From Bacteroidota bacterium (lineage in GTDB: Bacteria > Bacteroidota > Ignavibacteria > Kapaibacteriales > NICIL-2): DNA of 49,603 bases. The stretch spans positions 1 through 49,603 of the forward strand of contig JAIBAE010000025.1 in NCBI GenBank assembly GCA_019695345.1. The letters are read 5' to 3'. The stretch's first letter is position 1, and every line of letters begins with the position of its first letter. The translations under genes and the position numbers were made by a program. The notes under the pieces are model-generated. The model was given only the letters and a program-made list of their open reading frames with translations. It was not told the DNA's origin and searched no databases. Of the stretch, positions 4,567-48,970 are shown piece after piece.

Positions 4567-4983
4567 AGGGTAGTTCGTTATGTGTTATGAACGTATACCG
4601 TACAAAATAGCGAATTACAGAGTAATTATTTCAATCATCGCTGTAGTAGTTGGTTATTTTGCTAACGCATCGCGGCACCGCGCGGTTGTGTATTAACACT
4701 GCCATCTGCCGGAGAGAACCTTCAGCTATTCACACCATTGTTCGATGTTGAAGTACATACATCAAATATCTTTTAAACAGTTTATTTCCACTCATTCTCT
4801 GCCGTTACAATTTATAGTGGCGTTGCCTATTATAGAACTATGAGTTTGTATATAAGTTCCATACGTTTGGAACGATGACAGAACTTCATACTTTCACAAA
4901 AGTACATTGTAATGCAACCGCGCTTTTGTATGTTTGAGCAGAACAACACTCGTCTTTCCAATTATACTTCTTACATACAGAGA
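4567..4983. other. Intergenic region with one repeat copy
   Basis: Divergent spacer between the envelope protein on the - strand and the lipoprotein on the + strand. It holds the family 1 repeat at 4659-4720. The rest is AT-rich and presumably carries the two promoters; I see no further gene. Confidence 0.5.
4659..4720 (+). repeat. Dispersed intergenic repeat family 1, copy 2
   Basis: Left end TTTTGCTAACGCATCGCGGC followed by ACC, right end TCTGCCGGAGAGAACC. Its middle is almost identical to that of the copy at 48809-48872, which makes these two the closest pair in the window. Confidence 0.88.
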
Positions 4984-5679: not shown

Positions 5680-5765
5680 TATATAACTCATTCAACATCC
5701 AAAGTTGGGATGCAGTAAAAGACTACAGTTCTTTAACCTTTTACTTAAAACAGATTGGTATTTTC

Positions 5766-5856
5766 TGCTAACGCATTACGGCACCAAACGTTATTGTATA
5801 AACTGTATGGGGAATTCATGAATTCCCCATACGTCGTTATTCTGCCGGAGAGAACC
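5766..5856 (+). repeat. Dispersed intergenic repeat family 1, copy 3 (expanded)
   Basis: Ends are CTGCTAACGCATTACGGCAC and CTGCCGGAGAGAACC. This copy is longer than the others because its variable middle contains the 28-bp perfect palindrome listed separately at 5805-5832. Confidence 0.85.
5805..5832. repeat. 28-bp perfect palindrome inside a repeat copy
   Basis: Half-site GTATGGGGAATTCA followed immediately by its exact reverse complement, without spacer. It could form a cruciform or act as a dyad binding site. It lies in the middle of the family 1 copy at 5766-5856. Confidence 0.9.
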
Positions 5857-5924
5857 TTGTGTAAACAACACGCATATATGTATTTTGAACATTATCTATT
5901 AGCATCCACCTCGTCAACCAAAGA

Positions 5925-23396: not shown

Positions 23397-23462
23397 AAGC
23401 TGTACCGGTGGGTTCGCACCGGGTTGGCGCGCTGGCGCGGTTGCTTCGGCAGATGTGGAAAA
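23397..23462 (+). repeat. Dispersed intergenic repeat family 2
   Basis: GCTGTACCGGTGGGTTCGCA then CCGGGTTGGCG, followed by GTTGCTTCGGC and ATGTGGAAAAC. Lies downstream of the third cyclase gene and upstream of the haem-protein gene. Confidence 0.8.
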
Positions 23463-23542
23463 CAGTTTTTGTATTTGTCGGGTGAAACATTCAGGATTAA
23501 TATTTTGGTTCCGCTCACGGCATTTCACACCGTTGTGCTCGG

Positions 23543-25624
23543 TCACCCGTTGCCGTCCGAGCGTTCTAAGAAATACGTTCTCATCATTCCTTTGCCTTTG
23601 ATTTCGATTTCGCCGCGTGGGATAACGACAACCCCATCCCCGCCTTCCCCCGTAGGGAAGGACACGGAATCGTGTGTTTGGGTGGGAGTCAACGCACGAA
23701 CAAACTCCTCACTCACATGTATTCTTCCTGCCTCGCCGTGGCTTTCCATGCGGCTTGCGGTATTCACGGCATCAGAGAAAACATCATAGATAAATCTATC
23801 TTCTCCAACAACACCTGCTACCACCGGGCCACAGTGAATACCTACTCTAATACTGAGATGTCCATAACCATCAAAGTAATTCTTTAACTCATCCGGAATA
23901 GAAAGCGACTCAATCATTTCAAATGCTGCAGATGTTATTCTTTGAGCATGGTCAGAACATTCAACCGGGGCACCGGCTATTGCCATATATCCATCGCCTA
24001 TTGTTTTAATTTTTTCACAACCATGCTTCTTTATAATTCTATCAAAGTCTGAAAAAACATACCCTAAAAATTGAAGTACTACTTGTGCGGGCATGGCTGA
24101 ACTGATTGTTGTGAATCCCTTAATATCAGCAAAAAGAATAGACACATTAGGGAAGTAATCTGCTATCTGTTGCTCGTCATTAATTATTCGGTTTGCAATG
24201 CTAACAGGAAGCACACGGTGGAGCAATGTGGTGGTTGCGTTCATTTTAGCATCTGCTGTTGCTTTGGCAAGTTCAATTATCCTTTGGTGTTCGCGAATCG
24301 CCTCTTGTTTCTTTACTTCCACCATATTGAGTTCTCGCGCAGCTTCAATGTACTTTCTTAGTTGAACAGCAAGTTCTTTCCATCTACCTTGACTCTCGTA
24401 TAAATCTGCAAGGTAATTGTAAAAATCAACAACTATTGCTTTAGCTTCAATCTTAATACCTAATGCAATTGCCTTTAACAAATATTCTTCAGCTTTAGTA
24501 GTACTGTAGCTATCAAATTCAGGTATAGCATACAGTCCACCGATGTTTCCTGCAACAAGCGCTACACCGGACTCTTCACCAAGTGCTTCATGAACAGAAA
24601 GTGCTTTAAACATGTACTCCAATGCCTTATTATAGTCACCAAGTTGCTTATACACATTGCCGATGTTTCCTGTAACATGGGCTATACCTGATTGTTCTCC
24701 GAGTGCTTCGTGTGCAGAGAGTGCTTTACCATAGTATTCCAATGCCTTGTCATAATCGCCGATATCAGAATATACATTTCCTATATTCCCTGTTACACCC
24801 GCCATACCAGATTGTTCCCCAAGTGCTTCCTGTTCTGCGAGTGCTTGTAACATGTATTCCAGCGCCTTATTATAGTCGCCAAGTTCCTTATATATACTCC
24901 CGATGTTCGCTCTAACGCGGGCTAACGATGATTGTGCTCCTACTGCTTTGTGTGCAGAGAGAGCTTTATTAAAATATTCTATCGCTTTGTCATAGTCGCC
25001 AAGATTGTAATACACAATCCCGATGTTTCCTGTAACGCTGGCTGCAAATGATATGTCTCCAAGTGCTTCATGTACAGAGAGTGCTTTACTCATACATTCC
25101 AATGCCATGCTGTAGTCGTCGAGATTCATATACACAAGTCCGATGTTCCCGGTAACACGTGCTACCCCGGAGTCATCACCAAGTGCTTGATGTATAGAGA
25201 GTGCTTTGTTATAGTATTCCAATGTCTTGGCATAGTCACCAAACTTGTTGTACACATTTCCTATAAGGTTTAGTGCCTTGGGTTTGATATCGTCGGTACC
25301 ATATTCCTCTGCTACTGCAAGAACTTGCTCTGCTTGTTCAAGGGCAGTATTGTTGTTACCGCGGCGGTATGCAGTAGTGGCAAGGGAAAGAAGTGCGTAG
25401 ATGTAAAGTAAAACTCCTTTTCTGTCTTCAACTGTTGGAATGGAATGCTGTGCTGAGTTTGTTGTAGTACCTGAATGGGGAAAGACATTGCTTAAGGGTA
25501 TGGTTTGTGTGAACTGAACATTGCGCAGGACTCGTTGTGCAAGTTGTTCTGCTTCGTCGAAATTACTAGTGTTGCTTGCTTTATTTGCTTTGTCAAGCAA
25601 TGCTTGTAGTTCAGCGTGTGTCAT
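23543..25624 (-). CDS. TPR-containing adenylate cyclase (class III), third of three
   Basis: A 693-residue cytoplasmic protein. About eight 40-residue TPR units (about 80-400) precede a coiled linker and a class III cyclase domain (about 490-665). Both metal aspartates are present (D500 in LFADIKGF, D544 in IGDGYMAIAG), as are the adenine-selecting lysine (EKIKTIGD) and aspartate (YDVFSDAVN) and the transition-state arginine (NTASRMES), so it should make cAMP. TPRs probably sense a protein partner. A hairpin-forming insert lies in frame near the C-terminus (23631-23690). Its last codons and 3' flank closely repeat those of the neighbouring cyclase. It has a promoter-like motif shared with the first cyclase. 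Confidence 0.92.
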   Translation of the reverse strand: MTHAELQALLDKANKASNTSNFDEAEQLAQRVLRNVQFTQTIPLSNVFPHSGTTTNSAQHSIPTVEDRKGVLLYIYALLSLATTAYRRGNNNTALEQAEQVLAVAEEYGTDDIKPKALNLIGNVYNKFGDYAKTLEYYNKALSIHQALGDDSGVARVTGNIGLVYMNLDDYSMALECMSKALSVHEALGDISFAASVTGNIGIVYYNLGDYDKAIEYFNKALSAHKAVGAQSSLARVRANIGSIYKELGDYNKALEYMLQALAEQEALGEQSGMAGVTGNIGNVYSDIGDYDKALEYYGKALSAHEALGEQSGIAHVTGNIGNVYKQLGDYNKALEYMFKALSVHEALGEESGVALVAGNIGGLYAIPEFDSYSTTKAEEYLLKAIALGIKIEAKAIVVDFYNYLADLYESQGRWKELAVQLRKYIEAARELNMVEVKKQEAIREHQRIIELAKATADAKMNATTTLLHRVLPVSIANRIINDEQQIADYFPNVSILFADIKGFTTISSAMPAQVVLQFLGYVFSDFDRIIKKHGCEKIKTIGDGYMAIAGAPVECSDHAQRITSAAFEMIESLSIPDELKNYFDGYGHLSIRVGIHCGPVVAGVVGEDRFIYDVFSDAVNTASRMESHGEAGRIHVSEEFVRALTPTQTHDSVSFPTGEGGDGVVVIPRGEIEIKGKGMMRTYFLERSDGNG
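23631..23690. repeat. Hairpin element inside the third cyclase gene
   Basis: CCTTCCC (23643-23649) pairs with GGGAAGG (23655-23661). CATCCC-type and GGGTGGG-type arms flank it. It is read in frame and encodes a Ser/Gly-rich linker (SVSFPTGEGGDGVVV). The same place in the two other cyclases holds comparable elements. Confidence 0.65.
24500..25260 (-). repeat. Tandem 120-bp TPR-coding repeats in the third cyclase
   Basis: Units of 40 codons repeat with 120-bp spacing (GNIGNVYxxLGDYNKALEYM pattern). They are diverged in sequence, unlike the nearly identical units in the second cyclase. Confidence 0.8.
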
Positions 25625-25649
25625 GGTTTTTTGTAAGTGTTACACCGCA

Positions 25650-25664
25650 TACAAATTACACATT
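25650..25664 (-). promoter_or_regulatory. Shared upstream motif of the cyclase genes
   Basis: AATGTGTAATTTGTA (- strand) lies 26 bases ahead of the third cyclase. The identical 15 bases lie 22 bases ahead of the first cyclase (29734-29748). Likely a promoter core or regulator site. Confidence 0.5.
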
Positions 25665-25680
25665 CCATAACAATTACTAT

Positions 25681-25748
25681 GCGGTGCTGTACCGTTGGGT
25701 TCGCACCGGGTTGGCGTGCAGAAGGATTGCCTCGGTAGAGGTGGAAAC
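25681..25748 (+). repeat. Dispersed intergenic repeat family 2
   Basis: GCTGTACCGTTGGGTTCGCA then CCGGGTTGGCG, followed by GGATTGCCTCGG and AGGTGGAAAC. Lies between the second and third cyclase genes. Confidence 0.8.
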
Positions 25749-25798
25749 AAGATAAAAATTTGTGGTTCTCTCACGGTATTACACGGCGTTATGCTCGG

Positions 25799-27592
25799 TC
25801 ACCCGTTGCCGTCCGAGCGTTCTAAGAAATACGTTCTCATCATTCCTTTGCCTTTCATTTCGATTTCGTCGCGTTCAATCAACCCCATCCCAACCTTCCC
25901 CAAAAGGGAAGGAGTATCTGTTAGTAAGGCATCTCCTTTGGAGAGGGTTTGGGTGAGATGTATTACAAACTCCTCACTCACATGTATTCTTCCTGCCTCG
26001 CCGTGGCTTTCCATGCGGCTTGCTGTGTTCACTGCATCGCCCCATAAATCGTAGAGAAACTTATTTTCCCCAACAACGCCAGCTGCGGCGGGACCGCAAT
26101 GTACACCAATACGCACTTGTATTTCGGGAATTGATTCTATCCACGTTCTGTCACCATATTCTTCCGGAAATGTAACCACCAGGTTTTGCATCACATCAAG
26201 AAGTTTGAGTGCGGCGTGGGCTGCGCGGTGGGTGTGGTCTTCTTGAATAACCGGCGCACCCGCTACTGCCATGTACGCATCACCAATGGTTTTGATTTTC
26301 TCTAAGCCAAACTCACGCATTACGCCATCGGCAGCAGTGAAGATGGCATTGAGTAAATGCACAAGTTGTTGTGCGGTGATGGTAGTAGAGATTCTTGTAA
26401 AATCAACAATATCCATGAAGAGAATTGAGACAGAGTCGAAGTGGTCGGCAATGGGATTTTCACCTTTGATGAGGCGTGTGGTTATTTCTTCGGGGAGGAT
26501 GTTGTTGAGAATGTTCTTCTCGGCGGTGGCGCGGGTGCGCTCTATTTCAATCGCTTTTTGTTGCTCGCGGATGGACTCTTGCTTCTTGACTTCTTCTATG
26601 TTTATCTCGTCCTTTATCGCAATGTGTTTCTTGTTTTGCGCAAATGCTTCTTCCCAACGCTTTTCGTGTTCATAGAGTTCTGATAAGGTTTTATGAAACC
26701 CGACCAAATATGATTTCGCTCCAATCTCCGTACTTATCGCCAGCGCTTTCAGCAAAAACTCCTCTGCCTTCACCGCGTCAAAGCCCTCAAACTCAACCGT
26801 AGAGTATGCCGCGCCGATGTTGCCAAGATGATTTGCAACTCCCGCCTTGTTGCCGAGTTCTTCCGCTATCGTGAGCGCCTTGCCGTAATACTCTAATGCC
26901 TTGGGGTAGTCGGAGAGATTCTGGTGCACAGAGCCGATGTTGCCAAGCCATGCTGCTACTTCCGCCTTGTTTCCGAGCTCTTCCGCTATCGTGAGTGCCT
27001 TGCCGTAATACTCTAATGCCTTGGGGTAGTCGGAGAGATTCTGGTGCACAATGCCGATGTTGCCAAGCCATATCGATACTCCCGCTTTGTTGCCGAGCTC
27101 TTCGAACATGGAGAGTGCCTTGCCGTAATACTCTAATGCCTTGGGGTAGTCGGAGAGATTCTGGTGCACAGAGCCGATGTTGCCAAGCTTTGTTGCAACT
27201 CCTGCCTTGTTTCCGAGCTCTTCTGCTATGGAGAGTGCCTTGCCATAATACTCTAATGCCTTGGGGTAGTCGGAGAGATTCTGGTGCACAGAGCCGATGC
27301 TACCAAGTGCTTTGGCTATGCCTGCTTTGTCAGCTATTTCCTCGCTTAGAAGCAAGGAAGAGTTGAGATGCTCAAGTGCTTTGGGGTAGTCGCTTCGCCT
27401 CCACGATACCACTCCGAGTATGCGTGTGGCGTGGGCGCGGAGTTCATTACCCTGTCGCTCCGCACCATTCCCATTATCATCGGGGACTTTTGAGAGGACT
27501 TCATTCGCCAGCCGCTCAGCTTGGTCGTAGTTGCCTTTGTTTTGTTCTTCTTCTGCTTGGGAAAGCAGGGCTTGTAGTTGTTCGTGTGTCAT
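25799..27592 (-). CDS. TPR-containing adenylate cyclase (class III), second of three
   Basis: A 597-residue protein. Residues 60-290 carry about six TPR units of 40 residues (GNIGSVHQNLSDYPKALEYY), several nearly identical in DNA. A coiled linker (about 320-375) follows, then the cyclase domain (about 385-565) with D394 (LFMDIVDF), D438 (GDAYMAVAG), lysine in EKIKTIGD, aspartate in YDLWGDAVN and arginine in NTASRMES; all active-site positions are intact. Its ATG overlaps the stop of the first cyclase by one base (TAATG), so translation is probably coupled. A palindromic element (25880-25962) is read in frame near the C-terminus. The last residues match those of the third cyclase. Confidence 0.92.
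   Translation of the reverse strand: MTHEQLQALLSQAEEEQNKGNYDQAERLANEVLSKVPDDNGNGAERQGNELRAHATRILGVVSWRRSDYPKALEHLNSSLLLSEEIADKAGIAKALGSIGSVHQNLSDYPKALEYYGKALSIAEELGNKAGVATKLGNIGSVHQNLSDYPKALEYYGKALSMFEELGNKAGVSIWLGNIGIVHQNLSDYPKALEYYGKALTIAEELGNKAEVAAWLGNIGSVHQNLSDYPKALEYYGKALTIAEELGNKAGVANHLGNIGAAYSTVEFEGFDAVKAEEFLLKALAISTEIGAKSYLVGFHKTLSELYEHEKRWEEAFAQNKKHIAIKDEINIEEVKKQESIREQQKAIEIERTRATAEKNILNNILPEEITTRLIKGENPIADHFDSVSILFMDIVDFTRISTTITAQQLVHLLNAIFTAADGVMREFGLEKIKTIGDAYMAVAGAPVIQEDHTHRAAHAALKLLDVMQNLVVTFPEEYGDRTWIESIPEIQVRIGVHCGPAAAGVVGENKFLYDLWGDAVNTASRMESHGEAGRIHVSEEFVIHLTQTLSKGDALLTDTPSLLGKVGMGLIERDEIEMKGKGMMRTYFLERSDGNG
25880..25962. repeat. Palindromic element inside the second cyclase gene
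   Basis: Outer arms of CATCCCAACC type and GGTTTGGGTG type enclose CCTTCCC/GGGAAGG (25894-25900 with 25906-25912) and a smaller CTCC/GGAG hairpin. It encodes TQTLSKGDALLTDTPSLLGK and the next residues. It has the form of intergenic palindromes seen in other bacteria. Confidence 0.65.
26815..27310 (-). repeat. Tandem near-identical 120-bp TPR repeats in the second cyclase
   Basis: At least four to five units with exactly 120-bp spacing; for instance CCGATGTTGCCAAG recurs at about 26815, 26935, 27055 and 27175, and with small changes at 27295. Long blocks are identical between units, pointing to recent expansion or homogenisation. Confidence 0.92.
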
Positions 27593-29712
27593 TATGCTCT
27601 CTCCAAGAAAAACGTTTTCATTATGCCTTTGCCTTTGATAGCAATTTCGTCACGAGGTATAGCCCTCATCCCTTCCTTCTCCCAGTGGGAGAAGGTGTCC
27701 GAAGGACGGTTGAGGGCTTGTAAAAACTCCTCACTCACATGTATCCTCCCCGCCTCGCCGTGACTCTCCATTCTACTCGCTGTATTCACTGCATCGCCCC
27801 ATAAATCAAAGGTGAATTTCTTGTCGCCTATAACGCCGCCGATTGCTTCACCGCAGTGCAGACCTATACGTACTTGTATTTCGCCAACCTGCTCTGCCCA
27901 ACTTGTCTCGCCAAGTTCTTCGGGAATAGTGACAGATAAGTTATTCATTGCTTCCATTACATCTAAAGCGGCAAGTGCTGCACGTTGTGCATGGTCATCT
28001 TGGTGAACAGGCGCGCCGGCAACTGCCATATAGGCATCGCCAATGGTTTTGATTTTCTCCAAGCCATGTTTCTCCATCACTGCATCGGCATTACTGAAAA
28101 TGGTATTGAGGAGATAGATAAGATGACGCGGTGGAATGATAGCGGCAATGCGTGTGAAGTTCACCAAATCCATAAAGAGGACGCTGACATTCGGGTAACT
28201 GTCGGCAATAAATGTTTCATTGTTGATGAGTCGGTCGGCGATGATAGGCGGAAGTGTATTATGCAAGATACGTTTTACTGTTGCTGCTTCAGCCCTCTCA
28301 ACAGCAAGTTGTTTTTCGCGCTCTGCGGTTTTGCGTTCATAATCCAATTGCTCGGCTTTCTTTTTGGCATCTTCGCTTTGGACTTCCTCTTTTAGTTCGT
28401 GGTATTTTTTTAAGTGGTCAAATGCTTCTGATTTTCGTCCTTGTTTTTCGTAAATCTCAGTAAGTGATTCGTGAAGGAGATATAGTCCCTTTTTGTCGCC
28501 TAATTCCTCGAATATTGCTCCTCCTTGCAGTGTATATTCTTCTGCTTTCTTCAAATCATATCCGTCAAATTTTATTTCTGCATATACCTGTCCAATATTA
28601 CAAATCCAGTTAGCCATTCCACGTAAATCATTAATATCTTCACAAATAGCAACAGCCTCTTCGTAGCATGCGAGTGCATTGCTAAAGTCATAGAGCTCTT
28701 TGTACTGATTCCCAATATTCCCAATATGTCTTGCTACTCCGCTCTTATTATCAAGCTCTTCATCTAGTGTGCGTGCTTTATGTAAATATTCTAACGCTCG
28801 TAAGTAGTCAGAATGTTCACTATGTACAATTCCTATATTGCCTGTGCATAATGCCACACCTTGCTTGTTACCAAGTTGTTCATAAAGTGTGAGAGCTTTC
28901 TCGTTGTATTCAAGCGAGCGGGAATAGTCGGAGAGAAGACTAAATACATTTGCGATAGTAGAGGTAATAAAAGCAATGCCGAGCTTGTTACCGACTTCTT
29001 CATAGAGAAATAGTGCTTTCAGATTGTATTCCAATGCACGTGAATAATCATGGAGATTCATATAAACGCTACCAGTGCAATAGAGGTTGTGCCCAGCCCA
29101 ATCCTTATTACCAATTTCTGTATTAATGCTTAGCGCTTGGCTGTAATGCTCAAGAGCGAGTGAATAATCTCTGAGGTCGGCATATACGCTTCCGATGTTA
29201 TGAATAGCACCTGCCATAGCTTTTTTGTTGTTGAATTCTTCATGAATTGCAAGTGCTTTCCGATGGTATTCCAACGCGCGTGAATAGTCCTGAAGATTAT
29301 TATAAGTAAGCCCGATGTTACCTGTGATCAATCCAATGCTTCGTTTATCTTCAAGTTCTTCATAGAGTGCAAACGCTTTAAACTCGTATTCTAATGCACA
29401 ATGGAAGTCAAATAGTTGCTTGTGCACGACTCCTATGTTAAGGTGCGCACGAGCAGTTAATTTTTTATTCTCAGAATTCACGGCTAAGCCAAGTGCCTGC
29501 TCTGCAAAAGGCAATGCCTCTTGTGCATACCCGCGACTCCACAATGATTCACTCAAAGCAAGAAGTACTTTGCAGTGGAGTTCGGGTTCGTTAGCAATAC
29601 TCTCTTCTGTAAGGAGCAGCTGTGCTTGTGTTTCTACTTCTGCGAAGTCGTTGCCTGTTTTTACCAGTGCTTCGAGTTCTTCTACTGCTGTATGTAGTTC
29701 GTTGGGTGTCAT
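27592..29712 (-). CDS. TPR-containing adenylate cyclase (class III), first of three
   Basis: A 706-residue protein and the first gene of the cyclase cluster. About nine TPR units (about 75-420) are more diverged than in the second cyclase. A coiled linker (about 435-490, KKAEQLDYERKTAEREKQ) leads into the cyclase domain (about 505-685) with D515 (LFMDLVNF), D559 (GDAYMAVAG), the lysine in EKIKTIGD, aspartate in DLWGDAVN and arginine in NTASRMES, so adenylate cyclase activity is expected. A palindromic element (27661-27718) is read in frame close to the C-terminus. The stop overlaps the next cyclase ATG. A WYL regulator is transcribed divergently from the shared upstream region. Confidence 0.92.
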   Translation of the reverse strand: MTPNELHTAVEELEALVKTGNDFAEVETQAQLLLTEESIANEPELHCKVLLALSESLWSRGYAQEALPFAEQALGLAVNSENKKLTARAHLNIGVVHKQLFDFHCALEYEFKAFALYEELEDKRSIGLITGNIGLTYNNLQDYSRALEYHRKALAIHEEFNNKKAMAGAIHNIGSVYADLRDYSLALEHYSQALSINTEIGNKDWAGHNLYCTGSVYMNLHDYSRALEYNLKALFLYEEVGNKLGIAFITSTIANVFSLLSDYSRSLEYNEKALTLYEQLGNKQGVALCTGNIGIVHSEHSDYLRALEYLHKARTLDEELDNKSGVARHIGNIGNQYKELYDFSNALACYEEAVAICEDINDLRGMANWICNIGQVYAEIKFDGYDLKKAEEYTLQGGAIFEELGDKKGLYLLHESLTEIYEKQGRKSEAFDHLKKYHELKEEVQSEDAKKKAEQLDYERKTAEREKQLAVERAEAATVKRILHNTLPPIIADRLINNETFIADSYPNVSVLFMDLVNFTRIAAIIPPRHLIYLLNTIFSNADAVMEKHGLEKIKTIGDAYMAVAGAPVHQDDHAQRAALAALDVMEAMNNLSVTIPEELGETSWAEQVGEIQVRIGLHCGEAIGGVIGDKKFTFDLWGDAVNTASRMESHGEAGRIHVSEEFLQALNRPSDTFSHWEKEGMRAIPRDEIAIKGKGIMKTFFLERA
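27661..27718. repeat. Palindromic element inside the first cyclase gene
   Basis: Outer arms AGCCCTCA and TGAGGGCT pair perfectly, and inner arms CCTTCTCCC (27675-27683) and GGGAGAAGG (27687-27695) form a 9-bp stem. The segment TGTCCGAAGGAC between them parallels TGTCCGATAGGAC in the intergenic element at 30892-30954. It encodes NRPSDTFSHWEKEGMRA. Confidence 0.8.
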
Positions 29713-29762: not shown

Positions 29763-29832
29763 GCGCCGCTGTACCAGTGGGTTCGCACCGGGTTGGCGTG
29801 CAGAAGGTTTGCTTCGGCCGATGTGGGAAACC
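29763..29832 (+). repeat. Dispersed intergenic repeat family 2
   Basis: GCGCCGCTGTACCAGTGGGT then TCGCACCGGGTTGGCG, followed by GGTTTGCTTCGGCCG and ATGTGGGAAACC. Lies between the divergent first cyclase and WYL regulator genes. Confidence 0.82.
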
Positions 29833-46125: not shown

Positions 46126-46141
46126 TATCTAAGAAACAATT

Positions 46142-46207
46142 TTTTGCTAACGCAGGACGTCACCGCACCTCCTGCGTTTTTTATTGCCGTACTTTGCCGG
46201 AGAGAAC
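46142..46207 (+). repeat. Dispersed intergenic repeat family 1, copy 16
   Basis: Left end TTTTGCTAACGCAGGACGTC then ACCGCACC, right end TTTGCCGGAGAGAAC. Its left half doubles as an intrinsic terminator for kmo. Confidence 0.85.
46149..46183 (+). terminator. Intrinsic terminator for kmo inside a repeat copy
   Basis: AACGCAGGA (46149-46157) pairs with TCCTGCGTT (46170-46178), a 9-bp stem followed by TTTTATT. T-rich bases also precede the stem, so it could work on both strands. Confidence 0.8.
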
Positions 46208-46258
46208 ATTCAGAAACTGTTTAAGTTTTAAATCGGACGATGTAAAGCAAAGATTGTC

Positions 46259-48718: not shown

Positions 48719-48808
48719 ACTATGGCATACACAATGAAACACGCGGCAAAGTTAGAGAAACTTTCCAAACAAAACGGATGGATACAAATACGTTAGTAGT
48801 ACTTGTTG

Positions 48809-48872
48809 TTGCTATCGCCTTGCGGCACCAAGCGGTTGCTGTATTAACCACTGCCATCTGCCGGAAAGAACC
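48809..48872 (+). repeat. Dispersed intergenic repeat family 1, copy 17
   Basis: Left end GTTGCTATCGCCTTGCGGCA then CC, right end TCTGCCGGAAAGAACC. The middle is nearly identical to the copy at 4659-4720. Confidence 0.87.
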
Positions 48873-48970
48873 ACAGCAACAAAAAACTGTTGTTCGTGTG
48901 AAAGGTGTGTTGGTTATGTTTGCGATGAACTAAAAACAAAATGAAATAGATAATCTAAAAAACTTCCTCT

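Follow-up and report, generated by a model that had tools for sequence, protein, structure and literature searches.

Ectopic gene conversion among bacterial paralogues is reported from M. tuberculosis (PMC13061034) and from H. pylori AlpA (PMC5971833). The Rickettsia palindromic elements (RPE) are reported as dispersed short palindromic repeats that are also read in frame within genes (PMC10969869). Both subjects bear on a cluster of nucleotide cyclase genes in a Bacteroidota bacterium of the order Kapaibacteriales. The window, the whole 49,603-nt stretch of DNA that we analyzed, is one entire contig (C13) of a 4.56-Mb genome of 163 contigs, labelled G000. A search combining kapabacteria with adenylate cyclase found no literature. 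At the ends of two neighboring cyclase genes, W2 and W3, we observed two identical blocks, a contrast in silent sites, conflicting trees, copies of a dispersed element, and the make-up of the linker between the blocks. We conclude that W2 and W3 are very probably old paralogues whose 3' ends were recently homogenized by short-tract ectopic gene conversion.

Results

W1, W2, and W3 are adjacent minus-strand genes, each encoding a class III cyclase domain preceded by TPR repeats:

27592..29712, minus strand: W1, TPR and class III cyclase gene, overlapping the start of W2
25799..27592, minus strand: W2, TPR and class III cyclase gene
23543..25624, minus strand: W3, TPR and class III cyclase gene

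Their products are predicted class III nucleotide cyclases on the basis of both domain and fold. The W1 to W3 domains score 180.2, 178.3, and 178.9 bits, respectively, against PF00211 (cut-off, 21.9), and the predicted structure of the W2 domain (mean pLDDT, 93.5) aligns with solved cyclases at Z scores of 26.0 to 26.6 over 182 to 184 residues, with 26.6 to 5oyh. The best protein matches listed, from Bacteroidota, Chlorobiota, Ignavibacteria, and Candidatus Kapaibacterium MAGs, are at most 46% identical, in a list from which very near genomes may be missing. G000 has 19 class III cyclase domains, and the domain is absent from 21 of the 41 genomes searched. Very large expansions are seen in the same-order relatives G030, G012, and G031 (62, 37, and 32 domains). 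Within W2, the 120-nt TPR units at 26813-27412 (minus strand) are arranged head to tail and reach 88% identity, which suggests that they may have undergone recent intragenic expansion or homogenization.

The shared sequence of W2 and W3 lies at the end of the cyclase domain in both genes and consists of two blocks, A and B, separated by a linker:

25965..26023, minus strand: block A of W2, 59 nt identical to W3 23700-23758, coding for ASRMESHGEAGRIHVSEEF
23700..23758, minus strand: block A of W3, 59 nt identical to W2 25965-26023
25868..25966, minus strand: W2 linker, 33 aa, type-2 insert, not homogenized with W3 (hand-counted coordinates)
23612..23701, minus strand: W3 linker, 30 aa, not homogenized with W2 (hand-counted coordinates)
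25792..25855, minus strand: block B of W2, 64 nt identical to W3 23536-23599 (KGKG...DGNG, stop, 7 nt)
23536..23599, minus strand: block B of W3, 64 nt identical to W2 25792-25855

An earlier note on this DNA had placed a near-identical coding stretch at about 23700-23775 and 25968-26040. Block B encodes KGKGMMRTYFLERSDGNG, followed by the stop codon and 7 nt. The same note had described near identity between 23514-23605 and 25770-25860, starting about 30 nt beyond the stop codons; an exact 64-nt match is indeed present, but it reaches only 7 nt past them. We attribute the outer likeness beyond that point to a dispersed 64-nt element (see below), and the 148 nt around block B (23492-23639 and 25748-25895) are 83% identical overall. 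The exact tracts end 7 nt past the stop codons on one side and at 23758/26023 on the other. When 23400-25624 was compared with 25660-27592, the only further exact match of at least 18 nt was 21 nt within the family 2 repeat. The remainder of the two genes is clearly diverged, as the note had also held. Of 12 informative 60-column windows, 10 show protein identity of 29 to 56%, and the last two reach 63% and 77%; the DNA of the cyclase-domain head is 55% identical. The DNA of the linkers between the blocks matches in 62 of 110 aligned columns (56%).

Silent sites and trees support exchange between W2 and W3

We compared silent codons, defined as ungapped positions where the two genes encode the same amino acid and where that amino acid has more than one codon, in all 171 paralogue pairs of G000, 11 of which are direct neighbors. 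Linker columns (162-190 in G000) were excluded, and the permutation test treats codons as exchangeable. Silent codons of W2 and W3 agree at 26/57 positions upstream versus 39/42 in the core block and tail (Fisher P = 4.6e-7). In the best segment, 38 of 39 silent codons agree (permutation P <= 5e-5), and the pair is one of two among the 171 that reach the lowest value possible in the first permutation test. Averaged over all pairs, silent agreement rises from 0.471 (head) through 0.485 (core block) and 0.518 (KGKG part) to 0.656 (last codons); upstream, W2 and W3 agree about as often as an average pair. Since paralogues in general resemble each other more in the last codons than elsewhere, part of the raw W2-W3 signal is the repeat, and we repeated the test without the codons that the repeat supplies. 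The contrast persisted at 26/57 versus 31/34 (Fisher P = 1.2e-5, or 0.0021 after multiplication by 171; permutation P = 0.00016, or about 0.03 after the same correction). In the core block, the silent identity of W2 and W3 (0.905) is the highest of all 171 pairs (mean, 0.485), and a constraint common to all paralogues is therefore not the cause.

Without the repeat-derived last codons, 2 of the 171 pairs survive correction, and both are direct neighbors, a coincidence with a chance of about 0.004 by simple arithmetic. The only survivor other than W2-W3 is C18_4510/C18_6585 (36/73 versus 31/35; Fisher P = 0.0095 after correction), in which the segment begins earlier, at column 77. The other 9 of the 11 neighbor pairs in G000 are not significant after correction, among them the adjacent C31_17332/C31_19292 (permutation P = 0.015). 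A reverse pattern appears between W1 and C31_69075, which are alike in the head (95/127) and less so in the tail (16/34; Fisher P = 0.0032, uncorrected).

Trees of the two parts conflict. W3 groups with C18_8224 in the head tree (97.5/98) and with W2 in the tail tree (94/95). With tail data, from a tail that is short at about 150 nt, the AU test rejects the head tree (2e-58); with head data, it rejects the tail tree (6e-4). The identity of each tail to the sister of its head fits transfer in either direction between W2 and W3. As marks of conversion, W2 and W3 thus combine a silent-site excess, a tree conflict, and sharp ends without flanks carried along. Gene conversion was the earlier note's own interpretation of the patchwork; uniform divergence, which it had named as the observation that would speak against it, was looked for across the paralogues and not found.

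A dispersed element covers the stop codons

The 64-nt element, E3, spans the stop codons of both genes, and family 2 repeats follow them:

25758..25821, minus strand: E3 spanning the W2 stop codon, 64-nt dispersed element
23502..23565, minus strand: E3 spanning the W3 stop codon, 64-nt dispersed element
25698..25749, plus strand: family 2 repeat behind W2
23411..23462, plus strand: family 2 repeat behind W3

We found 16 strong copies of E3 in G000 and at least four weak ones. The model search scored 150 of 1,465 first-look candidates, so that weak copies may have been missed; the 16 strong copies were also recovered by a pattern search. All 16 lie at or behind the 3' end of a same-strand open frame. 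In 11 of the 19 G000 cyclases, both the final codons (...GNG) and the stop come from E3, and the other five strong copies start 9, 9, 20, 53, and 124 nt past a same-strand open frame. Besides those of W2 and W3, copies lie at C31:21506-21569, C32:8298-8361, C32:10342-10405, C32:14310-14373, and C32:20701-20764. Seven of the eight cyclases that lack E3 have an open frame overlapping that of the next cyclase. Among 41 genomes, the E3 core was matched within 2 mismatches only in G000 and the relative G002, where one cyclase is ended by a copy. On this sequence evidence, the identity across the W2 and W3 stops is in part that of E3. Its position suggests that E3 may be a 3'-end signal, a role to which RNA folding lends no support. 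We considered E3 as a structured RNA or terminator and set this aside, with no Rfam match in the window and fold z scores of -0.68 and -0.64 for the 3' flanks. For a possible shared ancestry of E3 with the family 2 repeat, local alignments scored only slightly above shuffles.

Family 2 copies do stand behind both genes, in agreement with the earlier note, and another precedes W1 (29780-29831). The suggestion that such flanking repeats promote conversion was not supported. The open frames of C18_4510 and C18_6585 overlap, as do those of the mosaic neighbors in G030 (below), leaving no repeat between them; the family 2 repeat is therefore not needed for conversion. The window contains another repeat family as well, at 2196-2294, 4657-4744, 5755-5880, 46134-46210, and 48799-48896 (GCTAACGC..GCGGCACC ... 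TGCCGGAGAGAACC).

The linker is a loop that accepts in-frame inserts

In the W2 model, the linker is predicted to lead from the helix that follows HVSEEF, by way of a loop and an added helix (178-187), to the next strand. Linkers are 24 to 33 aa long in 15 of the 19 G000 cyclases. In a census of other genomes (117 distinct tails from 181 open reading frame hits, after motif-less and duplicate rows were dropped), they are 14 to 17 aa in 76 tails and at least 23 aa in 17. Some of the added sequence is palindromic, as in W1:

27663..27716, minus strand: PE-1 in the W1 linker, 54-bp palindrome in frame, 53/54 to the unit (hand-counted around the 21-mer 27675-27695)

PE-1 sits in the linkers of W1, C31_17332, and C53_29979, and the C18_4510 linker bears a decayed likeness to it (43/54). 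The PE-1 core occurs within 2 mismatches at 22 places in G000, and 9 of these agree with the 54-bp unit in at least 50 of 54 positions. Of these nine good copies, three lie within open frames of 533 to 709 aa (533 being the limit of the fetched stretch); at the remaining six, the longest open frame is 55 to 114 aa. We did not find PE-1 in several unrelated genes, the long-frame copies among the nine good ones all lying in cyclases. A second kind of linker, type 2, has by eye two hairpins in an outer stem and occurs in five cyclases. Our first type-2 pattern was too strict and returned cyclase linkers only; a looser search added two copies elsewhere. One of these two, at about 1501-1610 of locus L223 (G000:C104), is a type-2-like palindrome, a different repeat type from PE-1, and lies within the reading frame of a T9SS type A sorting domain (TIGR04183; 26 bits versus a cut-off of 23).

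The same linker site carries long linkers of other sequence in G002, G013, G015, and G030 and at loci L162, L168, and L169. On two G015 contigs, C35 and C59 (L109, L110, and L225-L231), tandem cyclases carry a common, nearly identical 38-aa linker starting VRELGMRNE. When sought as a genome-wide repeat with a 20-nt signature at up to 1 mismatch, this linker gave 7 matches, all on the two cyclase-cluster contigs.

We computed fold z scores of linkers from dinucleotide-preserving shuffles. Scores of -2 or below were obtained for 8 of 29 linkers of 23 to 40 aa versus 9 of 80 linkers of at most 17 aa, with mean z of -1.17 versus -0.46. We therefore discarded the idea that every long linker is a strong hairpin: W2 and W3 (-1.1 and -0.9) do not stand out. 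Our claim of palindromes rests instead on the PE-1 scores of -2.9 to -4.3 in three genes and on the dispersed PE-1 copies. The linker region, a loop of the cyclase fold, accepts in-frame inserts, some of them dispersed palindromes.

Mosaic tails recur in other genomes

Of the arrays fetched from G030, G015, G009, G002, G013, and G021, those of the first three were put through the same silent-codon test. Tail mosaics resembling W2-W3 were found in two of these three genomes. In G030, 12 of 595 pairs fall below a permutation P of 0.005, where about 3 are expected by chance, and eight of these segments end in the tail. In G015, 5 of 28 pairs do so, all five in the tail (best Fisher P, 1.5e-9). 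G009, which also has tandem cyclases, gave none among 21 pairs at that threshold. The clearest case is C71_9119/C71_11041 in G030, with silent codons 98% alike in the head and 59% in the tail; C71_11041 shares with C71_5236 a tail segment at 26/28 and an identical linker (60/60 nt). Only 3 of the 12 significant G030 pairs are adjacent, and the mean tail excess is 0.105 for adjacent pairs versus 0.082 for others, so neighbors are hardly favored there.

We compared linkers in 13 mosaic pairs, namely, the 2 of G000, 6 of the 8 tail-ending G030 pairs (permutation P < 0.005), and all 5 of G015. They are 73 to 100% alike in nine pairs. In the other four, they are only 35 to 56% alike although the flanks on both sides are homogenized, which fits either loop exclusion or two separate tracts.

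Discussion

These results led us to consider how the ends of W2 and W3 could have become alike. In this view, W2 and W3 are ancient paralogues whose silent sites have become saturated. Most likely, the neighboring tandem genes paired, probably through RecA-type machinery, at two strongly protein-constrained stretches, namely, the HVSEEF-ending motif and the KGKG...TYFLER terminus. These motifs beside the linker could supply the short near-identical stretches that conversion needs. The heterologous linker may have been left out as an uncorrected heteroduplex loop, or two separate tracts may have been converted. The stop-codon block would additionally be kept alike as part of E3. The stop-spanning element and the in-frame inserts, neither of which the earlier note had recognized, account for part of the patchwork look.

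Could the likeness have arisen with no exchange at all, through strong protein constraint together with a dispersed repeat at the stop? E3, with its 16 strong copies, does cover stop codons, and the last codons are more alike in every paralogue. Nevertheless, block A lies more than 100 nt away from E3, the core-block silent identity is nearly double the mean, and the silent-codon test holds without the E3 codons; we regard this explanation as very improbable. Even less weight falls on an assembly artefact in which short reads merged two similar genes. The 59- and 64-nt blocks are shorter than a read and the assembly has 163 contigs, but differing linkers interrupt the blocks, and genomes that were assembled independently show the pattern too.

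Two further explanations are somewhat better placed but still unlikely. Unequal crossing-over or duplication in the array, rather than conversion, could have fused heads and tails of different genes, as the tandem arrangement and head/tail chimaeras such as G030 C71_11041 and C31_69075/W1 might suggest. The identity of W2 and W3, however, stops 7 nt past the stop codon with the downstream flank not carried along, and the linker inside the tails is unshared, which makes this improbable here. SbcCD-type hairpin cleavage is a possible source of breaks at palindromes, and slightly less improbable is that breaks at palindromic linkers start the exchange, so that the inserts themselves drive conversion. 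Tracts do lie on both sides of the linker, and 15 of 19 G000 linkers are long. Yet break repair should replace the linker, which is unshared in 4 of the 13 mosaic pairs, and the folding of the W2 and W3 linkers is unremarkable. Moreover, some G030 genes that form tail mosaics have linkers of 20 aa, and palindromes are therefore not required for conversion. Short-tract conversion anchored on the conserved motifs remains our preferred explanation for W2 and W3.

A broader picture can be drawn only tentatively, and we hold it to be rather doubtful as a whole: the TPR-cyclase arrays of this order may contain a recurrent 3'-end shuffling zone, anchored on near-invariant catalytic motifs, through which enzyme ends are passed among paralogues, while one loop serves as a repeated landing site for palindromes that diversify the enzyme and is shielded from homogenization. 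The exchange between W2 and W3 shows how a large bacterial signaling family can remain similar at the catalytic end even as its other parts diverge. The arrays offer natural gene pairs with homogenized flanks and an unhomogenized insert. They also offer a case of a dispersed palindrome read as protein beyond the reviewed Rickettsia example (PMC10969869). The intragenic palindrome copies gather at one loop of one fold, and insert tolerance is thus testable on the enzyme.

Each of these processes is of a known kind; the combination is unusual and is present in several genomes. The W2 domain has its fold in common with the class III adenylate/guanylate cyclases 5o5k (46% identity) and 5oyh. Unlike those, W1 to W3 carry TPR repeats N-terminal to the cyclase domain, and their linkers are about 8 to 19 residues longer than the 14 to 17 usual for class III cyclases. 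PE-1 is like RPE in being a short dispersed palindrome read in frame as a conserved peptide, RPSDTFS[HQ]WEKEGMR in PE-1. It differs in size, 54 bp versus about 150 bp for RPE, and in that its intragenic copies are found in one cyclase loop only; the likeness is one of description (PMC10969869). As in the M. tuberculosis and H. pylori AlpA cases, W2 and W3 show mosaic identity tracts between diverged paralogues. They differ from those cases in that the tracts lie at the 3' end of TPR-cyclase genes, occur in three genomes, and can omit a heterologous insert (PMC13061034, PMC5971833).
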